Source: Dyella silvae
GTDB taxonomy: Bacteria > Pseudomonadota > Gammaproteobacteria > Xanthomonadales > Rhodanobacteraceae
Assembly: GCF_026421305.1 (NCBI RefSeq)
Contig: NZ_JAPJBQ010000003.1
Location: 434,001-498,000 of the forward strand
Length of the DNA stretch: 64,000 nt
Reading direction: 5' to 3'
Under the pieces are notes generated by a model. The model was not told the DNA's origin. It searched no databases and worked only from the letters and a program-made list of their open reading frames with translations. The first letter of the stretch is position 1, and the number at the start of each line of letters is the position of its first letter. The position numbers and the translations under genes are program-made. Below, one piece after another: positions 8,912-30,569 of the stretch.

Positions 8912-9938
8912 GGGTGTCTTCCCGCTGGCGGCGGATCTCATCTACGCACTCTGCAACCAGCGCCGGGCCGCGGTAGACCATGCCCGAGTAGATCTGCACC
9001 AGCGAGGCGCCTGCGTCGATTTTCTCGGCGGCGTCGCTGCCATCGAGAATGCCACCCACGCCAATGATGTCGAGCTGGTTGCCCACGCGCTTGCGCATGC
9101 CGCGCAGCACGGCGGTGGAGCGGGCAAACAGCGGTTTGCCAGACAGTCCGCCGGTTTCATTGCCATGCGGGTCGCTGGCCACGGCAGAGTGATCGATGGT
9201 GGTGTTGGTGCAGATCACGCCGTCGACCTTCGCTGCCATCAGGACTTCTGCGATGGCGTCGAGTTCGGTTTCGCTGAGGTCTGGCGCGATCTTCAGCAGC
9301 ATCGGCTTGCGTGCGCCGCTTTGCGAGCCGAGACGCTCCTGCGCTTCACGCAGCGTCTCGATGAAGCGGCGCAGGGTGGCCTCCTCCTGCAGATCGCGCA
9401 GGCCCTGCGTGTTGGGCGAGGAGATGTTCACCGTGATGTAGCTGGCGAGCGCATACACGCGCTCAAGGCAGAACAGGTAATCGTCCACGGCCTTTTCGTT
9501 GGGCGTGTCTTTGTTCTTGCCGATGTTGATGCCGAGCACGCCGCGATAGCTGGACTGCTGCACGTTGCGAACAAGCGCGTCGACGCCGGCATTGTTGAAG
9601 CCGAGACGGTTGATCACCGCCTCGTGGCGCGGCAGTCGGAACATACGCGGCTTGTCGTTGCCCGGCTGCGGCCGCGGCGTGGTGGTGCCGACTTCGATAA
9701 AGCCGAAGCCAAGCGCTCCCAGGCCGTCGAGGTGGTCGGCGTTTTTGTCCAGTCCGGCCGCCAGACCCACCGGGTTCGGAAAGCGGATGCCAAAGGCCGT
9801 GGTCGGCAATTCCGCGGGCGGCTTGGCGATCAGGTGGGAGAAGTTGCTGCGTTGGGCAACGTCGAGCCCGTATAGGGTGAGGCCATGGGCTGTTTCGGCG
9901 TCGAGCGCGAACAGCAAGGGACGGATCAGATCGTACAT
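8901..9938 (-). CDS. pyrD: Dihydroorotate dehydrogenase (quinone), class 2
   Basis: A 345-residue class 2 dihydroorotate dehydrogenase, which oxidises dihydroorotate to orotate with electrons passed to quinone (pyrimidine synthesis, inner membrane face). The N-terminal amphipathic helix ([15 protein letters not shown]) is the quinone and membrane segment. Also visible are [18 protein letters not shown] and [14 protein letters not shown] with the catalytic Ser typical of class 2. The start ATG at 9938 directly follows the stop of the upstream methyltransferase gene, and the 3' end overlaps murB. Confidence 0.97.
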
Positions 9939-23264: not shown

Positions 23265-23276
23265 CGTGAGTGATTG

Positions 23277-24674
23277 ATGAGTGTTCCACCGACCTACCTG
23301 AAGCGCCGAAAGTTGGGCTGGTACGTGCAGTTGCCTGTCCCGCAGAGGCACCAAGCGGCCATGGGGACAAAGGTGCTCACAAGGTCGCTGCAGACTCGCG
23401 ATGAGGTCGAGGCGCACAAGCGCCGCCATCGTGTCATCGCAGATCTTCAGCAGCTGATTGCACAGGTGGCGCCTGCTGCCCCCAGAGCTCTCACCCCTGA
23501 GGTCATCCTTGAGTCAGCCACGAGGGCGCGCGAGGAGATGGACGCAGGGGCTGTGTCGCGCACAGACGCGTCCCATGCACTGGATGCACTTGTCGGTGAC
23601 TATCTGGAAGAGCAGGGGCGCAAGCACGGGGTGGACATGGAGGGGCACCCGAAGATTTCCCTCGAGGCGGTCTCTACGATTCGCCGCGCGCATCATCGGC
23701 TGACGGGGAATCCATCGCTCACGCTGGGGTACCAAGCCGAGCAGTACATGAAGTGGATTGAGGCAACTCCAATCCGCCGGCAGACTGTGGAAGACAAGCG
23801 GCGACACCTTGACTCCTTCCTTGACTGGATCGGTCGGGACACGGAATGCAAGAAGGTTACGAAGGCTCGGGCAAGCGCCTACGTGAGCGACGCGGTCATG
23901 CCGCGCGAGCGTGCCATTCAAACCAAACGCGCAGCAATCAACGAAGTGCGGCAGTTCTTCGACTGGCTGGAGTTGCGGGACGCGGTGGTCATGAACCCCT
24001 TCTCCAAGCTCGGGAAGCTCCTGAAGGAATCTACGCGGGGCAAGGAGCAGGCGCGCAGGCCGTGGGCAAACGCCGAGCTGCTGAAGATGCTCCAGAAGGT
24101 GTCGCAGGATGACCCACTGTGGCCGCTGACCGCCCTCGGTGCTTACACGGGGGCTCGGCGGGAGGATCTCTGCAGCCTGCGCGTTGATTCCGTGGACGGC
24201 GATGTATTGCATGTGCGGGAAGGTAAGACGGCGGCGGCAGTTCGCCGTGTTCCCATTCATCCAGTGATTCGACCTCTGGTGCGACGCTTGGCTGAGACCA
24301 GTTCGGACGGTTACCTGTTGCCGGGCCTGCTGGCCGGCGGGAGTGATGACAAGCGCGGCCACCTGATTGGGAAGCGGTTCCTCTACACGAAGGATCAAGC
24401 CGGAGTGACCGACCCGCGCGTGGTCTTCCATTCGTTCCGCAACTCCGTGCTGACGCAGATGGAGGTCGCTGGCGTTGCGTTGACGTTGCGTCAGCAGATC
24501 GTGGGCCATGAGCGAGGCGGTGTGACTGAAGGAACGTATACGGCGAGAGCAGCCGATGAACGTCTAGCTGAAGCACTTGCTCACGTCACGTACGGGAAGA
24601 CGGTGGATGACCTCGTGCGTACTGTCGGCGATACATTGTCGCTCTCGGTCGTTTCCCGAAGGCGGAAGAGGTGA
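23277..24674 (+). CDS. Tyrosine site-specific integrase
   Basis: A 465-residue phage-type integrase. The N-terminal region (about 1-60, TYLKRRKLGWYVQLPVPQR) resembles the DUF6538 head of tRNA-targeting integrases. A SAM-like core-binding domain spans about 155-245 and the catalytic domain about 265-450. Catalytic residues are R294 (TGARRED), H385 and R388 (HSFR), H411 (GHERG) and Y421 (EGTYTAR), with a Lys in EGKTAA. All are intact, so it should be active. ATG at 23277 follows a TTG in frame. Its place beside attL and inward direction are usual for islands at tRNA 3' ends. Confidence 0.95.
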   Translation: MSVPPTYLKRRKLGWYVQLPVPQRHQAAMGTKVLTRSLQTRDEVEAHKRRHRVIADLQQLIAQVAPAAPRALTPEVILESATRAREEMDAGAVSRTDASHALDALVGDYLEEQGRKHGVDMEGHPKISLEAVSTIRRAHHRLTGNPSLTLGYQAEQYMKWIEATPIRRQTVEDKRRHLDSFLDWIGRDTECKKVTKARASAYVSDAVMPRERAIQTKRAAINEVRQFFDWLELRDAVVMNPFSKLGKLLKESTRGKEQARRPWANAELLKMLQKVSQDDPLWPLTALGAYTGARREDLCSLRVDSVDGDVLHVREGKTAAAVRRVPIHPVIRPLVRRLAETSSDGYLLPGLLAGGSDDKRGHLIGKRFLYTKDQAGVTDPRVVFHSFRNSVLTQMEVAGVALTLRQQIVGHERGGVTEGTYTARAADERLAEALAHVTYGKTVDDLVRTVGDTLSLSVVSRRRKR

Positions 24675-24960: not shown

Positions 24961-25377
24961 TCAGGGGCTCCCTTCATTCCCCACCAAGGCAGCGATAAGT
25001 TCGGCGTGGTTTTCTGCCCACTGCTTTTGCATTGGATTTCCTTGTCCGACATCGCCCTGAAGTTTTTCCATGCGCATGCGGAACCCTTTCAGGCCTTGCA
25101 GCAATTTTTCTTGTGTATCTTCGTAGAGCCGGGGCAGGCGCTGACGCTTTCGCCAGCAGGTCACCTCAAACTGCAGGAGCAGCAGTTCACGAGCGACCCT
25201 CATCGTCTCTCGTTGCCAAGCGAGGGTTCGAGCATCCCTGCGTGCCTGCTCGCTGATACGCGCGCGCAACTGCTCTCGGTGAAGTGCTCGAAGGTGGCTG
25301 CGCTCAAGATCGCCACGAATGAGGGGGCTGAGGGTGGCATCGTTTAGCAGCTCTGCGTAGTCGGCGGCGGTCAGCAT
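24961..25377 (-). CDS. Hypothetical protein of the element, Arg-rich helical
   Basis: A 138-residue, highly helical, Arg/Leu/Glu-rich protein (DLERSHLRALHREQLRAR...) without signal peptide or membrane segment. A CAGGAGC lies 10 bases before the ATG. It starts 3 bases after the stop of the Cys-rich gene and is the last gene of the leftward operon. The family was not recognised. Confidence 0.65.
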   Translation of the reverse strand: MLTAADYAELLNDATLSPLIRGDLERSHLRALHREQLRARISEQARRDARTLAWQRETMRVARELLLLQFEVTCWRKRQRLPRLYEDTQEKLLQGLKGFRMRMEKLQGDVGQGNPMQKQWAENHAELIAALVGNEGSP

Positions 25378-25380
25378 GGT

Positions 25381-25761
25381 TCAGTGCTCCTGAGGGGTAT
25401 GCCCCGGCGGGAAACTTGATGGGGCCGCTGGGTTGGTATGGGGGAGGCCGTGTGTGTCCGATACGGCATGCCCTGCGGAAGGCCTCAGGGTCATTCGAGA
25501 GCCGGACTCTCGGGCACGTTTCAGTCGACCTCGCATGTAAGCCTTTCCGTTCCTCTGCAGGATCGGCAGGGCGCGCTCGACAGCAGGTGCAATCTCGGCG
25601 GGGATGCGGCGCAAGCCTCCCGCCTTCATCGCTTCAAGCAACCACGAACAGACAGCCTCTCCGCTTCTGGTCTGACAGTTGACATGTTTCGGAACGAGGG
25701 GGCACACGGGTGCATTGCAGCTGGCCCACTTGGGGCAAGCCTTCGGGGAAATGGTGGTCAT
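25381..25761 (-). CDS. Cys-motif small protein of the element
   Basis: A 126-residue protein. The N-terminus ACPKWASCNAPVCPL (about 8-22) with C29 and C38 resembles a class of small proteins of phage-like islands sharing C-x5-C-x-A-x2-CPL, probably metal binding. This resemblance is from memory and unverified. The first 92 residues end in RARESGSRM. The remaining 34 are encoded by copy A of a duplicated DNA module, so the C-terminus may be acquired or the natural end may be read through. AGAGGAA precedes the ATG. Confidence 0.65.
   Translation of the reverse strand: MTTISPKACPKWASCNAPVCPLVPKHVNCQTRSGEAVCSWLLEAMKAGGLRRIPAEIAPAVERALPILQRNGKAYMRGRLKRARESGSRMTLRPSAGHAVSDTHGLPHTNPAAPSSFPPGHTPQEH
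25421..25520. repeat. Duplicated 100-bp module, copy A
   Basis: Aligns without gaps to 27301-27400 at about 72 of 100 identical positions. Both copies hold CGCTGGGT-x-GGTATGG and TACGGCAT-x-CCCTGC. Copy A forms the 3' end of the Cys-motif gene. Conservation in both an ORF tail and a non-coding stretch suggests a DNA- or RNA-level role. Confidence 0.75.
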
Positions 25762-25870: not shown

Positions 25871-26080
25871 TCAGTCGATGCGGTTGCTGCTGAGCGGCCG
25901 GAAAAACGAAGTGCGATACACCGGAACGCCGCGAGTGCCTTGGACGACTTGGGTGTGCGGAGAGGAGCTCTCGTCCCTCAGGTGCTGCAAGACCTTCAGT
26001 CGGCGATGACCGGAATTCTCACGCTCCATCCGATATAGGCGCTGGCCGAGTTCGTCCATGTCGTCGTAGTGCATTGTCAT
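25871..26080 (-). CDS. 69-residue hypothetical protein of the element
   Basis: A charged small protein (MDELGQRLYRMERENSGHRR, then a basic tail). AGGGAG lies 5 bases before the ATG, which overlaps the stop of the preceding gene by four bases, so the two are translationally coupled. No domain was recognised. Confidence 0.6.
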   Translation of the reverse strand: MTMHYDDMDELGQRLYRMERENSGHRRLKVLQHLRDESSSPHTQVVQGTRGVPVYRTSFFRPLSSNRID

Positions 26081-26583
26081 CGCGCTCCCTGTCGCTGCGC
26101 ACGAAGACGCTTCGCGGCTTCTTCGATCTCCATCTCCTCAGCACGCTTCAGGGCAGCCTGGTGAATGCGCTGCTGGCGTTCCCCTTCGGCCTTCAGGCGC
26201 TCTTCGGTGGTCGGCATGACTGCCTTGCGAGCTGCGATGTCGGCGGCACGTGCCTGCGTCATCGGTAGCGTGTGTGCGGTCAGCTGGTGCAGCTCAATCT
26301 CTAGGGAGCGGCGGCGCGGATGATCCGCTGGGATGACCATGTGGGGCTTGCCGGTGTTCTTATCGAAGGTGCCGGTGGTTTCGCTCAGAAGCTTTGTCAC
26401 TGCGTCACGGCGACGTTCCACCTGACGGATCATCTCTGCCGGGTCAGTGGTGTGAAGCATCTCCGTTTCTTCGTCGGCCGAGTACGGCTGCTCGTGGTCG
26501 ACGCGGAGCTGCTCCACGGATGCGGACAGGTTCTGCTCAAAGCTGGCGATGTGGTCGGCGTAGGGGGTGTTGTTGGTGGTCAT
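26077..26583 (-). CDS. Hypothetical coiled-coil protein of the element
   Basis: A 168-residue, hydrophilic, Glu/Gln/Arg-rich protein. The N-terminal part is acidic. The C-terminal third (about 115-165, ERLKAEGERQQRIHQAALKR) should form one long helix or coiled coil and ends strongly basic. ATG at 26583 starts the conserved-looking part; the longer frame adds a Pro-rich stretch. It sits 25 bases after the 86-residue gene in the same operon. No enzyme motif was seen. Confidence 0.65.
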   Translation of the reverse strand: MTTNNTPYADHIASFEQNLSASVEQLRVDHEQPYSADEETEMLHTTDPAEMIRQVERRRDAVTKLLSETTGTFDKNTGKPHMVIPADHPRRRSLEIELHQLTAHTLPMTQARAADIAARKAVMPTTEERLKAEGERQQRIHQAALKRAEEMEIEEAAKRLRAQRQGAR

Positions 26584-26608: not shown

Positions 26609-26869
26609 TCAGTTGGCGGTGGTGGCAGATGCGAGCGCACCTGCCCAGAGCTTGCTGAGCTCTGCGTCGACTTCCGCCGGGGTGGCGGCATCAAGCTCAG
26701 CTGCGACCTCAGCGAGAACGCTGTATCCGACAGTGCCTACATGGCGGGCGACGACTTCGGTAAAGGTCAGACAGCCTTCAATAGCGCGGATGGCGCGGAG
26801 CTGATTGACGATGGTCAGCAGGAAGGCGATCTGCTGTTGCTGCGTGATCGTTTGTTGGGTGTCGTGCAT
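26609..26869 (-). CDS. 86-residue hypothetical protein, first gene of the element operon
   Basis: A helical, Ala/Glu-rich protein (MHDTQQTITQQQQIAFLLTI...), with AAGGAA 9 bases before the ATG. It has no Lys-rich DNA-binding motif or signal peptide. It is the promoter-proximal gene of a leftward set of five; the GGAAC array and palindrome lie 240-320 bases upstream of its start. The family was not recognised. Confidence 0.65.
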   Translation of the reverse strand: MHDTQQTITQQQQIAFLLTIVNQLRAIRAIEGCLTFTEVVARHVGTVGYSVLAEVAAELDAATPAEVDAELSKLWAGALASATTAN

Positions 26870-27103
26870 GGGAGGTATTCCTTTCGGGCGCAGATGTCCG
26901 TCCGTGCCGATGGCTCAGCACGGATGAACGGTGGCGGTGGGTGGTTGGATCAGGGGTACAGCAAGACACGCACGGAAGGTGTGCGCAGAGAAACCGGCGG
27001 GAGGCCGGAAGGAGAGCCAGCAGGCTGGCAGGATGCGGGATCGACCGATGCCTACAGGAGGAGCCTGAGGTGGTCTTGAGGGAAGTCCTCGGGTTTTACC
27101 CAA

Positions 27104-27166
27104 GGAGGGAACTGGTAGGAGGGAACCTGTAGAAGGAACCTACTGAAGGAACTCTAAGAGGGAACC
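27104..27166. repeat. Phased GGAAC array (5 copies, 13-14 base period)
   Basis: GGAAC begins at 27108, 27122, 27135, 27148 and 27161, with steps of 14, 13, 13 and 13. Most copies read AGGGAAC or AAGGAAC followed by C or T. A degenerate sixth copy (AAACC) falls near 27176. Period and degeneracy fit iterons or a multi-site operator, not CRISPR. Confidence 0.8.
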
Positions 27167-27175
27167 TTAAAGATA

Positions 27176-27189
27176 AACCTTAAGGTTTT
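27176..27189. promoter_or_regulatory. Perfect 14-bp palindrome
   Basis: AAACCTTAAGGTTT reads the same on both strands. It lies 9 bases beyond the last GGAAC repeat and upstream of the leftward operon. Half-sites (CCTTAA) recur at 27165-27170. It looks like an operator for a dimeric regulator. Confidence 0.6.
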
Positions 27190-27300
27190 TAGGGTAGCAC
27201 CACTGTCAAGCCCTCCATTTTTTGGTCAGCAGCGCAGTCCGATCTTTGGTCATCATCAGCTGCGGCCTCCTCTACCTCATGCCGCGTCGGGTCTAGAAGC

Positions 27301-27400
27301 TGGGCCGCTGGGTAGGTATGGAGATGAGTGAGTGTCTCCGCTACGGCATACCCTGCAGGAGCTCTCAGCGGTATTCGTGAGGGTGCCTCTCGGGTACTGC
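27301..27400. repeat. Duplicated 100-bp module, copy B
   Basis: The partner of 25421-25520 in the same orientation, 1,880 bases away. Both copies could encode a similar peptide on either strand (RYGIPC on plus, AGYAV on minus), so the coding strand, if any, is unclear. Confidence 0.75.
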
Positions 27401-27658
27401 GTGACAGGTCGAAAAAGGGAGTGATCAATTTCCCGAACAGGGTCGCTGACGTGCGTGGCGAAAAAAAGCAAAACAGAGGAGCCCGGACGCGCGCGGGCAA
27501 ATCGAAAAAGCCCATGCGCTCGCAGGGAGCGCACGGACAACACCCACCGAGGCCAATCGGTAGAAGGGGCGGCAACGCTGCGTGCGTTTATTCGATTGTG
27601 CGGCCTAATTGATCGTCGGCGATCTTGCAGAGAACGTGATCAGGCGAGCACCGGGATT

Positions 27659-27764
27659 CCGAGGAGTGTCCTCAGGTTCTCCGAAGGTGAGTGGTAATGC
27701 GGCCGGTTATCCGAAGGTGGGCGCTAATTGAATCGGCGCTCAGTGCTGCAGCTCTCCGAGGGTG
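27659..27764. repeat. CCGAAGGTG direct repeats, possible IS-end remnant
   Basis: CCGAAGGTG occurs at 27681 and 27711, with variants CCGAGGAGTG at 27659 and CCGAGGGTG at 27756. The full unit is about CCGAAGGTGNGNGNTAAT, at spacings of 30 and 45 bases. Repeated short units of this type occur at the ends of IS21-family elements, but no istAB gene is present. A binding-site array for the adjacent recombinase is the alternative. Confidence 0.45.
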
Positions 27765-27790
27765 TGTGCCAATAGCACTCGGCGGAACCC

Positions 27791-28498
27791 TCAGGCCATC
27801 CTGCGAGGAGCCTCAGCGCCCACCATGCGACGGATGGCGGTGATCTGGTAGATGTTTCCCCTGCTGTTCTTGTGGCCGGCCTTGGTCAGCTCCTCGGCGA
27901 TCTCTCGCATCGAGCGCCGTTGTCCCGTCGCAGGGTTCCGGCGGTAGAGCTTGCGGGCCAGCGCGACAACCTCAGGCTGCGTTTCGGCCATGCTCTTCCG
28001 CCCCTCACACTTGCCGTGTGTGGATCGCTTGCGGTCACGGGCTCCCCTCAGCTTGGCAACGGTCATTGCCTTGTCGAACTGCGCAACCGCGCCGAGGATC
28101 TGCCGCACCATGACGGCAGTGGGTGTGTCGTCGAGGAAGTTGTTGGGAGAGTCGACCGCGATCAGTTCGATGCCGCGTGCCTGCAGTAACCGATACCCGG
28201 TCTCTTGAACGATCAGGTCACGCGCGAAACGCGATGCGGTTTCCACAAGGATCGTGCGGATCTCTGGGTGTTCCCCCAAGTAGCTCAGCATCGCGGAGAA
28301 GCCCGGGCGATCTTGAATCAGGTCCGAGCCCGACACGGCGGCGTCGTAGAACGGAGGCTCGTGAACGATCAGCCCATGTCGCTTGGCGTAGTTGGTGATC
28401 GCGGTCAGCTGCCTCTTGTGGCTGTCCTTGTCTTGTCCGGTGTTCGTGGCCGAAGAGGTGCGGAGGTAGGCGACTGCTGCTGCAGGCTTGGAAGTCAT
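27791..28498 (-). CDS. Serine recombinase (resolvase/invertase family)
   Basis: A 235-residue small serine recombinase. The catalytic domain (about 8-150) has the nucleophile Ser in YLRTSS (about S15), the arginine pair in ETASRFARDL and the QFDKAMTVAKLRGARDRKR long helix. A C-terminal HTH region (about 165-225, RSMREIAEELTKAGHKNSRG) follows. ATG at 28498 begins the beta strand; the 23-residue upstream extension is dropped. It is the second recombinase in the element besides the integrase and could act in inversion, resolution or as a relic of an earlier insertion. Confidence 0.9.
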   Translation of the reverse strand: MTSKPAAAVAYLRTSSATNTGQDKDSHKRQLTAITNYAKRHGLIVHEPPFYDAAVSGSDLIQDRPGFSAMLSYLGEHPEIRTILVETASRFARDLIVQETGYRLLQARGIELIAVDSPNNFLDDTPTAVMVRQILGAVAQFDKAMTVAKLRGARDRKRSTHGKCEGRKSMAETQPEVVALARKLYRRNPATGQRRSMREIAEELTKAGHKNSRGNIYQITAIRRMVGAEAPRRMA

Positions 28499-29098
28499 GG
28501 CGTCCGTGCATATTGGCTGACCTGAGGCCAAGCATGCCAAGGCTTCCACGATGAACGCAAGCACCAAATCTCAAGAATTGGTGTTTATTTGATGGGCATA
28601 CCAAGGACTAGTCGGGAACCTGATCGGCCTCTCGGAGCCTTGGTCGCATGGGGTTGTCAGCATCAGCTGGCCCCTTTGTCCAAGGTGTTGACCATCCGAC
28701 CATGAGCACCAAGGGATTTCTTTTTGCGCGTCCCCTTGAGGCCGCCGTAGTGGCGACAGCACCGCATCTCCGACGCGACGGGTCGATGCGATACCCACTT
28801 GGATTCCCTTTCGCACCCCTCAGGTCAACGGCTGCCATCCACTAACGGCAGGTCCGAGGTCGGGGTGCGGAGAAACTTTGCAACAAGCATCTCCTCACTC
28901 CTTTGGCAGGGGAACGAGGCTTTAGCCTAGCGCTGATGATTCGTTACACACAACTTGGCGGGTGATCGAGGGAGGCCCCACGGGGGTAATCACTGCGCTT
29001 GATCGATCGATACCGCTTCGGATTTTTGCGGCAAAACGGCTGAAGTAGTTCCAATTGCTGGCTATGATCGGCCAGAGGCTTCGGTAGGGGGAGACACA
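28499..29098. other. Intergenic region in the element
   Basis: About 600 bases between the divergently read recombinase and the secreted protein gene. TATGAT at 29063-29068, with a poorly placed upstream hexamer, is a possible -10 for the secreted protein. AGGGGGAG before 29099 is its ribosome binding site. No gene was supported. Confidence 0.45.
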
Positions 29099-30335: not shown

Positions 30336-30371
30336 GATTGCCCCCGTGGATGTACGCGAGAGCATACCAAC

Positions 30372-30482: not shown

Positions 30483-30506
30483 CTGGTACCGGTGATAGGA
30501 CTCGAA
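30483..30506 (-). repeat. attR: 3' end of the restored tRNA-Leu
   Basis: The 24 bases are identical to attL and form the CCA end, acceptor 3' strand and T loop of tRNA-Leu, so integration keeps the tRNA functional. Confidence 0.9.
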
Positions 30507-30569
30507 CCTACACGACATCGCTGCCAGCGGATTTTGAGTCCGCCGCGTCTACCATTCCGCCACACCGGC
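30484..30569 (-). tRNA. tRNA-Leu (anticodon CAA)
   Basis: An 86-base class II tRNA. The acceptor GCCGGTG pairs with CACCGGT (one G-U pair at 1-72), and the anticodon loop CTCAAAA has CAA. A long variable arm, T arm and encoded CCA follow. It is the integration site of the 7.3-kb element. Confidence 0.95.

Follow-up and report, generated by a model that had tools for sequence, protein, structure and literature searches.

The window, i.e. the complete 64-kb stretch of DNA analyzed in this study, harbors an exact 24-bp direct repeat representing the 3' end of tRNA-Leu(CAA). The two copies of this repeat (attL and attR, Table 1) thus bound a 7.3-kb integrative element, which exhibits the anatomy of a plain tRNA-integrated island. 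Between its two recombinase genes the element carries a leftward operon with the gene order p86, p168, p69, p126 and p138 (26869 down to 24961), preceded by a 920-bp non-coding control region (26870-27790), while further element genes run on beyond the serine recombinase to position 30365. Within the control region, an inverted repeat with 15-base arms is located directly before p86 and is possibly an operator or a leader hairpin. An AlphaFold model of p126 was of low confidence (pLDDT 58) and uninformative.

Table 1. Features of the integrative element, its control region and its attachment sites
Feature	Position	Strand	Basis or remark
attL, 24-bp core repeat CTGGTACCGGTGATAGGACTCGAA	23163..23186		exact repeat of 30483-30506
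Tyrosine integrase (DUF6538 + Phage_integrase)	23274..24674	+	Pfam/PHROG
p138, last gene of leftward operon	24961..25377	-	weak relative beside p126 homologue in prophage locus L057
p126, Cys-rich protein	25381..25761	-	conserved in family elements and L057
p168	26077..26583	-	homologues in L044, L056, weakly L057
p86, first gene of leftward operon	26609..26869	-	good ribosome binding site; no relatives found
Inverted repeat, TCCGTGCCGA-TGGC-TCAGCACGGA core	26896..26929		immediately upstream of p86
A(N)GGA-rich stretch (13 motifs), candidate CsrA/RsmA-binding RNA	26957..27161	+	
GGAAC array, five 13-bp units, core GARGGAACY	27103..27168		
Sixth in-phase unit, degenerate, AAAGATAAACCTT	27169..27181		
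Perfect 14-bp palindrome AAACCTTAAGGTTT	27175..27188		left half = unit 6
Promoter-like TTGACA(27209-27204)-16-AACCTT	27182..27209	-	second hexamer inside palindrome; predicted start about 27175
Second repeat family, GGTTMTCCGAAGGTG x3	27675..27773		same 15-mer type in L044 control region
Serine recombinase (resolvase/invertase type)	27791..28567	-	Pfam/PHROG
attR, within 3' end of tRNA-Leu(CAA) gene	30483..30506		exact repeat and tRNA position
tRNA-Leu(CAA) gene	30484..30569	-	

The most conspicuous feature of the control region is an array of five GGAAC copies starting at 27108, 27122, 27135, 27148 and 27161. Their steps of 14, 13, 13 and 13 had been reported in an earlier note on this DNA; they proved exact, and the arrangement is beyond chance in the window. 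Three GGAAC in a row at 13-bp steps have two exact matches in the 64 kb, and with two mismatches allowed this pattern was matched three times versus 0.12 expected per 64 kb, a count of three that none of 100 shuffles reached. The exact phased pattern was found nowhere else in the whole assembly of the host. Screening 2.35 Mb of this assembly for any 5-mer recurring over at least five steps of 11-16 recovered, besides the array, simple hexamer repeats only (GCCAAA/GCCAGA type).

Closer examination of the five full units, which are mutually 65-73% alike, revealed that all share a core longer than GGAAC, namely GARGGAACY. Only six of the 13 columns are variable, compared with 8.0 expected from identity-matched neutral tandem-duplication simulations (p = 0.019) and 9.3 expected under random scatter (p = 0.003). 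As the changes are concentrated outside GARGGAACY, the core looks constrained, if only modestly. A sixth unit follows in phase, and the perfect palindrome AAACCTTAAGGTTT has this unit (AACCT at 27176) as its left half. The palindrome had already been pointed out as a neighbor of the array and is now seen to have its half-site in common with it; a second copy of AAACCTTAAGGTTT with up to two mismatches was absent from the window. The array is non-coding, as previously claimed: a coding origin was rejected on the basis of the period of 13, which is not a multiple of three, and of the lack of a conserved ORF over the array. The exclusion of CRISPR likewise stands, since CRISPR loci combine repeats of at least 23 nt with unique spacers and cas genes, while the array has a 13-bp period with a 9-bp core and no cas was present among the scanned genes. 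The array is a genuine, unusual and lineage-specific structure with a constrained core.

This lineage specificity became apparent in the comparison with related elements. The nearest relative (locus L044), found via p168 at 38-40% identity, also contains repeats in a non-coding stretch at the same place, upstream of the homologous leftward operon, but the repeat is a different one. A GGAAC-type phased array was absent from relatives L044-L051 and L056, and the GARGGAAC pair pattern occurred, among all fetched loci, in the host's own copy only. The conserved repeat spacing in homologous elements that the earlier note had proposed as a test was therefore not observed. Conservation cannot be shown with relatives that lack the array, and we take its absence there to mean that it is lineage-specific rather than disproved. 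A search with the control-region DNA against about 400 genomes of the order returned chance matches only, p86 was not found in 233 genomes of the family, and p168 was matched in a single genome contig (G223) and in none of the viral contigs. The phage and plasmid collections searched gave no match. The spaced GGAAC pattern has matches in some other genomes. In contrast to the array, the second repeat family GGTTMTCCGAAGGTG is of a 15-mer type, GGTTATCCGNNGGTG, common to the window and the repeats of L044, and is thus the better candidate for a site shared between elements, although matches to this motif with two mismatches are by themselves not rare. In L044, the 15-mer type sits among the repeats at 9336-9630.

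The gene content of the operon hints at a phage connection. In a prophage (locus L057), relatives of p168, p126 and, weakly, p138 adjoin a large internal virion protein. In this part of L057 (2653-9915), the gene set follows the virion protein, which has an endolysin domain. Given this position, the operon may be a phage accessory module. In several elements of the same family, the relatives of p126 are located downstream of AlpA-like genes.

Among the readings considered, a lineage-specific operator array acting at the DNA level on the promoter of the leftward operon is the likeliest, and we favor it tentatively. The best promoter-like score near the array was obtained on the minus strand directly before it, at the 99.96th percentile of positions. 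Its -10 hexamer (AACCTT) is poor, which counts against an operator, and a strict sigma-70 scan detected no promoter near the array. From the phased units, the palindrome sharing their half-site, the constrained core and the place upstream of the operon, we infer the following promoter, regulator and spreading. RNA polymerase would use the TTGACA at 27209-27204 as -35 element, the palindrome AACCTTAAGGTT would cover the presumed -10 and start, and downstream of it would follow the five direct copies of the half-site, which read (A)AGGTTCC leftward and succeed one another in steps of 13 bp. The palindrome would be occupied by a dimer of the regulator, from which additional copies would extend over the half-sites, thereby blocking or tuning transcription of the leftward operon. 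A palindrome on the presumed -10 with an array continuing the same half-site fits an operator with a half-site array. The leftward gene block of the element has no large non-coding stretch other than the one with the array, and L044 has (different) repeats upstream of its homologous leftward operon; both point in the same direction. The cooperative operator suggested earlier thus gains from its position in the element control region, upstream of the leftward operon and beside a palindrome sharing its half-site, and from the even spacing of the repeated site at a leftward promoter-like sequence, but loses from the lack of the array in the relatives; in addition, Pfam and PHROG recognized no regulator or DNA-binding domain in the element besides the recombinases. 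Also against an operator, adjacent sites would not lie on one helix face, since 13 bp correspond to 1.24 helical turns.

Direct-repeat operators are known for small regulators of mobile elements, including the P2-type Cox boxes, the lambda Xis sites and the omega-repressor heptads. The array resembles these operators in that an integrating element has short direct repeats, close together and regular, by a promoter in its control region. Unlike them, it has a 13-bp step with a 9-bp core, its sites are about 3-4 kb away from both attachment ends, and the element is without a recognized gene of the Cox, Xis or CopG type. If the array is an operator, it would be a further example of a mobile element controlling an accessory operon by repeated half-sites.

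The plus strand allows a different interpretation, which we consider doubtful and rank next, level with a functionless duplication discussed below. The region from about 26950 to 27195 could encode a small RNA that sequesters the host's CsrA/RsmA in the manner of CsrB/CsrC. The short hairpin loops of this RNA would expose the ARGGA of the array units, and its end would be formed by the palindrome and the TTTTT behind it. The earlier note had regarded the units on this strand as lookalikes of ribosome binding sites; a sharper form of this suggestion is that the conserved unit core ARGGA is also the core of the CsrA SELEX consensus RUACARGGAUGU (PMC7652899). This non-coding stretch has 13 A(N)GGA motifs within 205 nt and is thereby the densest such cluster on both strands of 2.35 Mb of the host genome (next best 8) and comparable to E. 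coli csrC (13) and csrB (14). It contains 16 GGA in 251 nt, six of them in short hairpin loops (csrC 14 and 6), but the GGA are not unusually unpaired, and their placement in loops differs less from the region's own shuffles (p = 0.06) than in csrC (p below 0.01). The flank without the array is only weakly enriched in the motif (p = 0.04-0.09 versus dinucleotide shuffles), and unit 6 is in phase yet lacks GGA. The hairpin before TTTTT is weak and ordinary, as an equally good one accompanies 66% of the T-runs sampled over 1.26 Mb, and a convincing plus-strand promoter was not found. The search for a GacA-type box gave at best a match with at least four mismatches, Rfam had no match for the region, and no relatives were found. 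G-U pairs in the stems were of no use for choosing the strand, as they occur on both. The host does possess csrA. Plasmids and phages carry csrA alleles (PMC7366521) and in Xanthomonas, where no CsrB/RsmZ-type RNA is known, RsmU with only four GGA has been described (PMC7694677), which together make a sponge plausible. Compared with the CsrB/CsrC/RsmZ family, the candidate, predicted from sequence, equals csrC in A(N)GGA density and number of hairpin-loop GGA, but differs in lacking an Rfam match, a convincing promoter and a GacA box, in lying on an integrative element and in its very regular 13-nt steps. RsmU stems from the same bacterial order and is proposed to sequester RsmA through GGA motifs, but is processed from a chromosomal 3'-UTR (PMC7694677). 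Should a small integrative element indeed carry its own CsrA/RsmA-titrating RNA of 13-nt ARGGAAC repeats, which we rate as rather unlikely, it could seize the host's global post-transcriptional regulator. This would be a CsrB-like RNA that belongs to the order Lysobacterales and resides on a mobile element. It would imply that integrative elements carry RNA sponges in addition to the csrA copies already described for plasmids and phages, and would supply this order, in which CsrB-type RNAs are missing, with a candidate amenable to testing.

A decaying, functionless 13-bp tandem duplication in non-coding DNA, whose purine-rich unit yields GGA accidentally, is about as doubtful as the sponge. 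The limited likeness of the units, their absence in the relatives and the occurrence of other short tandem arrays in the same host are consistent with such an origin, whereas the avoidance of the core by the variation (p about 0.02) and the continuation of the array in phase into a perfect palindrome by a promoter-like site argue against it. We consider it improbable that the array instead functions in the leader RNA of the leftward operon, where its pyrimidine-rich sequence, flanked by stable hairpins and largely single-stranded, would offer a platform for Rho-dependent attenuation or for base-pairing to the ribosome binding site of p86. Compared with shuffled sequences, the leader on the minus strand (27205-26870) folds far more stably (z = -4.65; z = -2.0 for the plus strand), while the array within it is unstructured (z = 0.34), but the start of this leader is only a predicted one. 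The array's minus strand also resembles Rho utilization sites in having more C than G (C/G about 1.9) and a C every 11-13 nt and thereby passes the RUT rule of RhoTermPredict (PMC6407284), a loose rule that about 1.4% of the sampled genome positions pass as well. It is very improbable that the units are iterons from which the excised element would replicate in a plasmid-like manner. The occurrence of short direct repeats within a control region and the second repeat family at 27675-27773 would suit such an origin, but the units are shorter than typical iterons and absent from the relatives, and neither Pfam nor PHROGs revealed a replication initiator near the array. The small-element origin considered in the earlier note is therefore not supported in an element with the anatomy of a tRNA-integrated island.

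Several additional observations concern the neighborhood of the related genes and repeats elsewhere. An uncharacterized Cys/His-rich protein (CAAKGC...YCPSH...TRDPHGR) is encoded upstream of the p168 homologues in L044 (9637-10518), L056 (6614-7294) and L057 (6539-7417); the L044 and L057 copies exhibit 32% identity, and the protein had no match in PHROG. The pattern search in viral contigs identified two unrelated 13-14-bp tandem arrays of the GTTCCC/GGGAACC type (L058 4407-4439 and L059 14260-14560), which adjoin an integrase-type gene or sit upstream of a gene in contigs that are themselves unrelated. The host genome contains several (GCCAAA)n or (GCCAGA)n hexamer arrays (L061 about 130, L062 about 5594, L100, L116, L155 and L101), and those of L061, L062 and L155 have the flanks CCGGAGGTCAA and GCGGCGCGCG in common.
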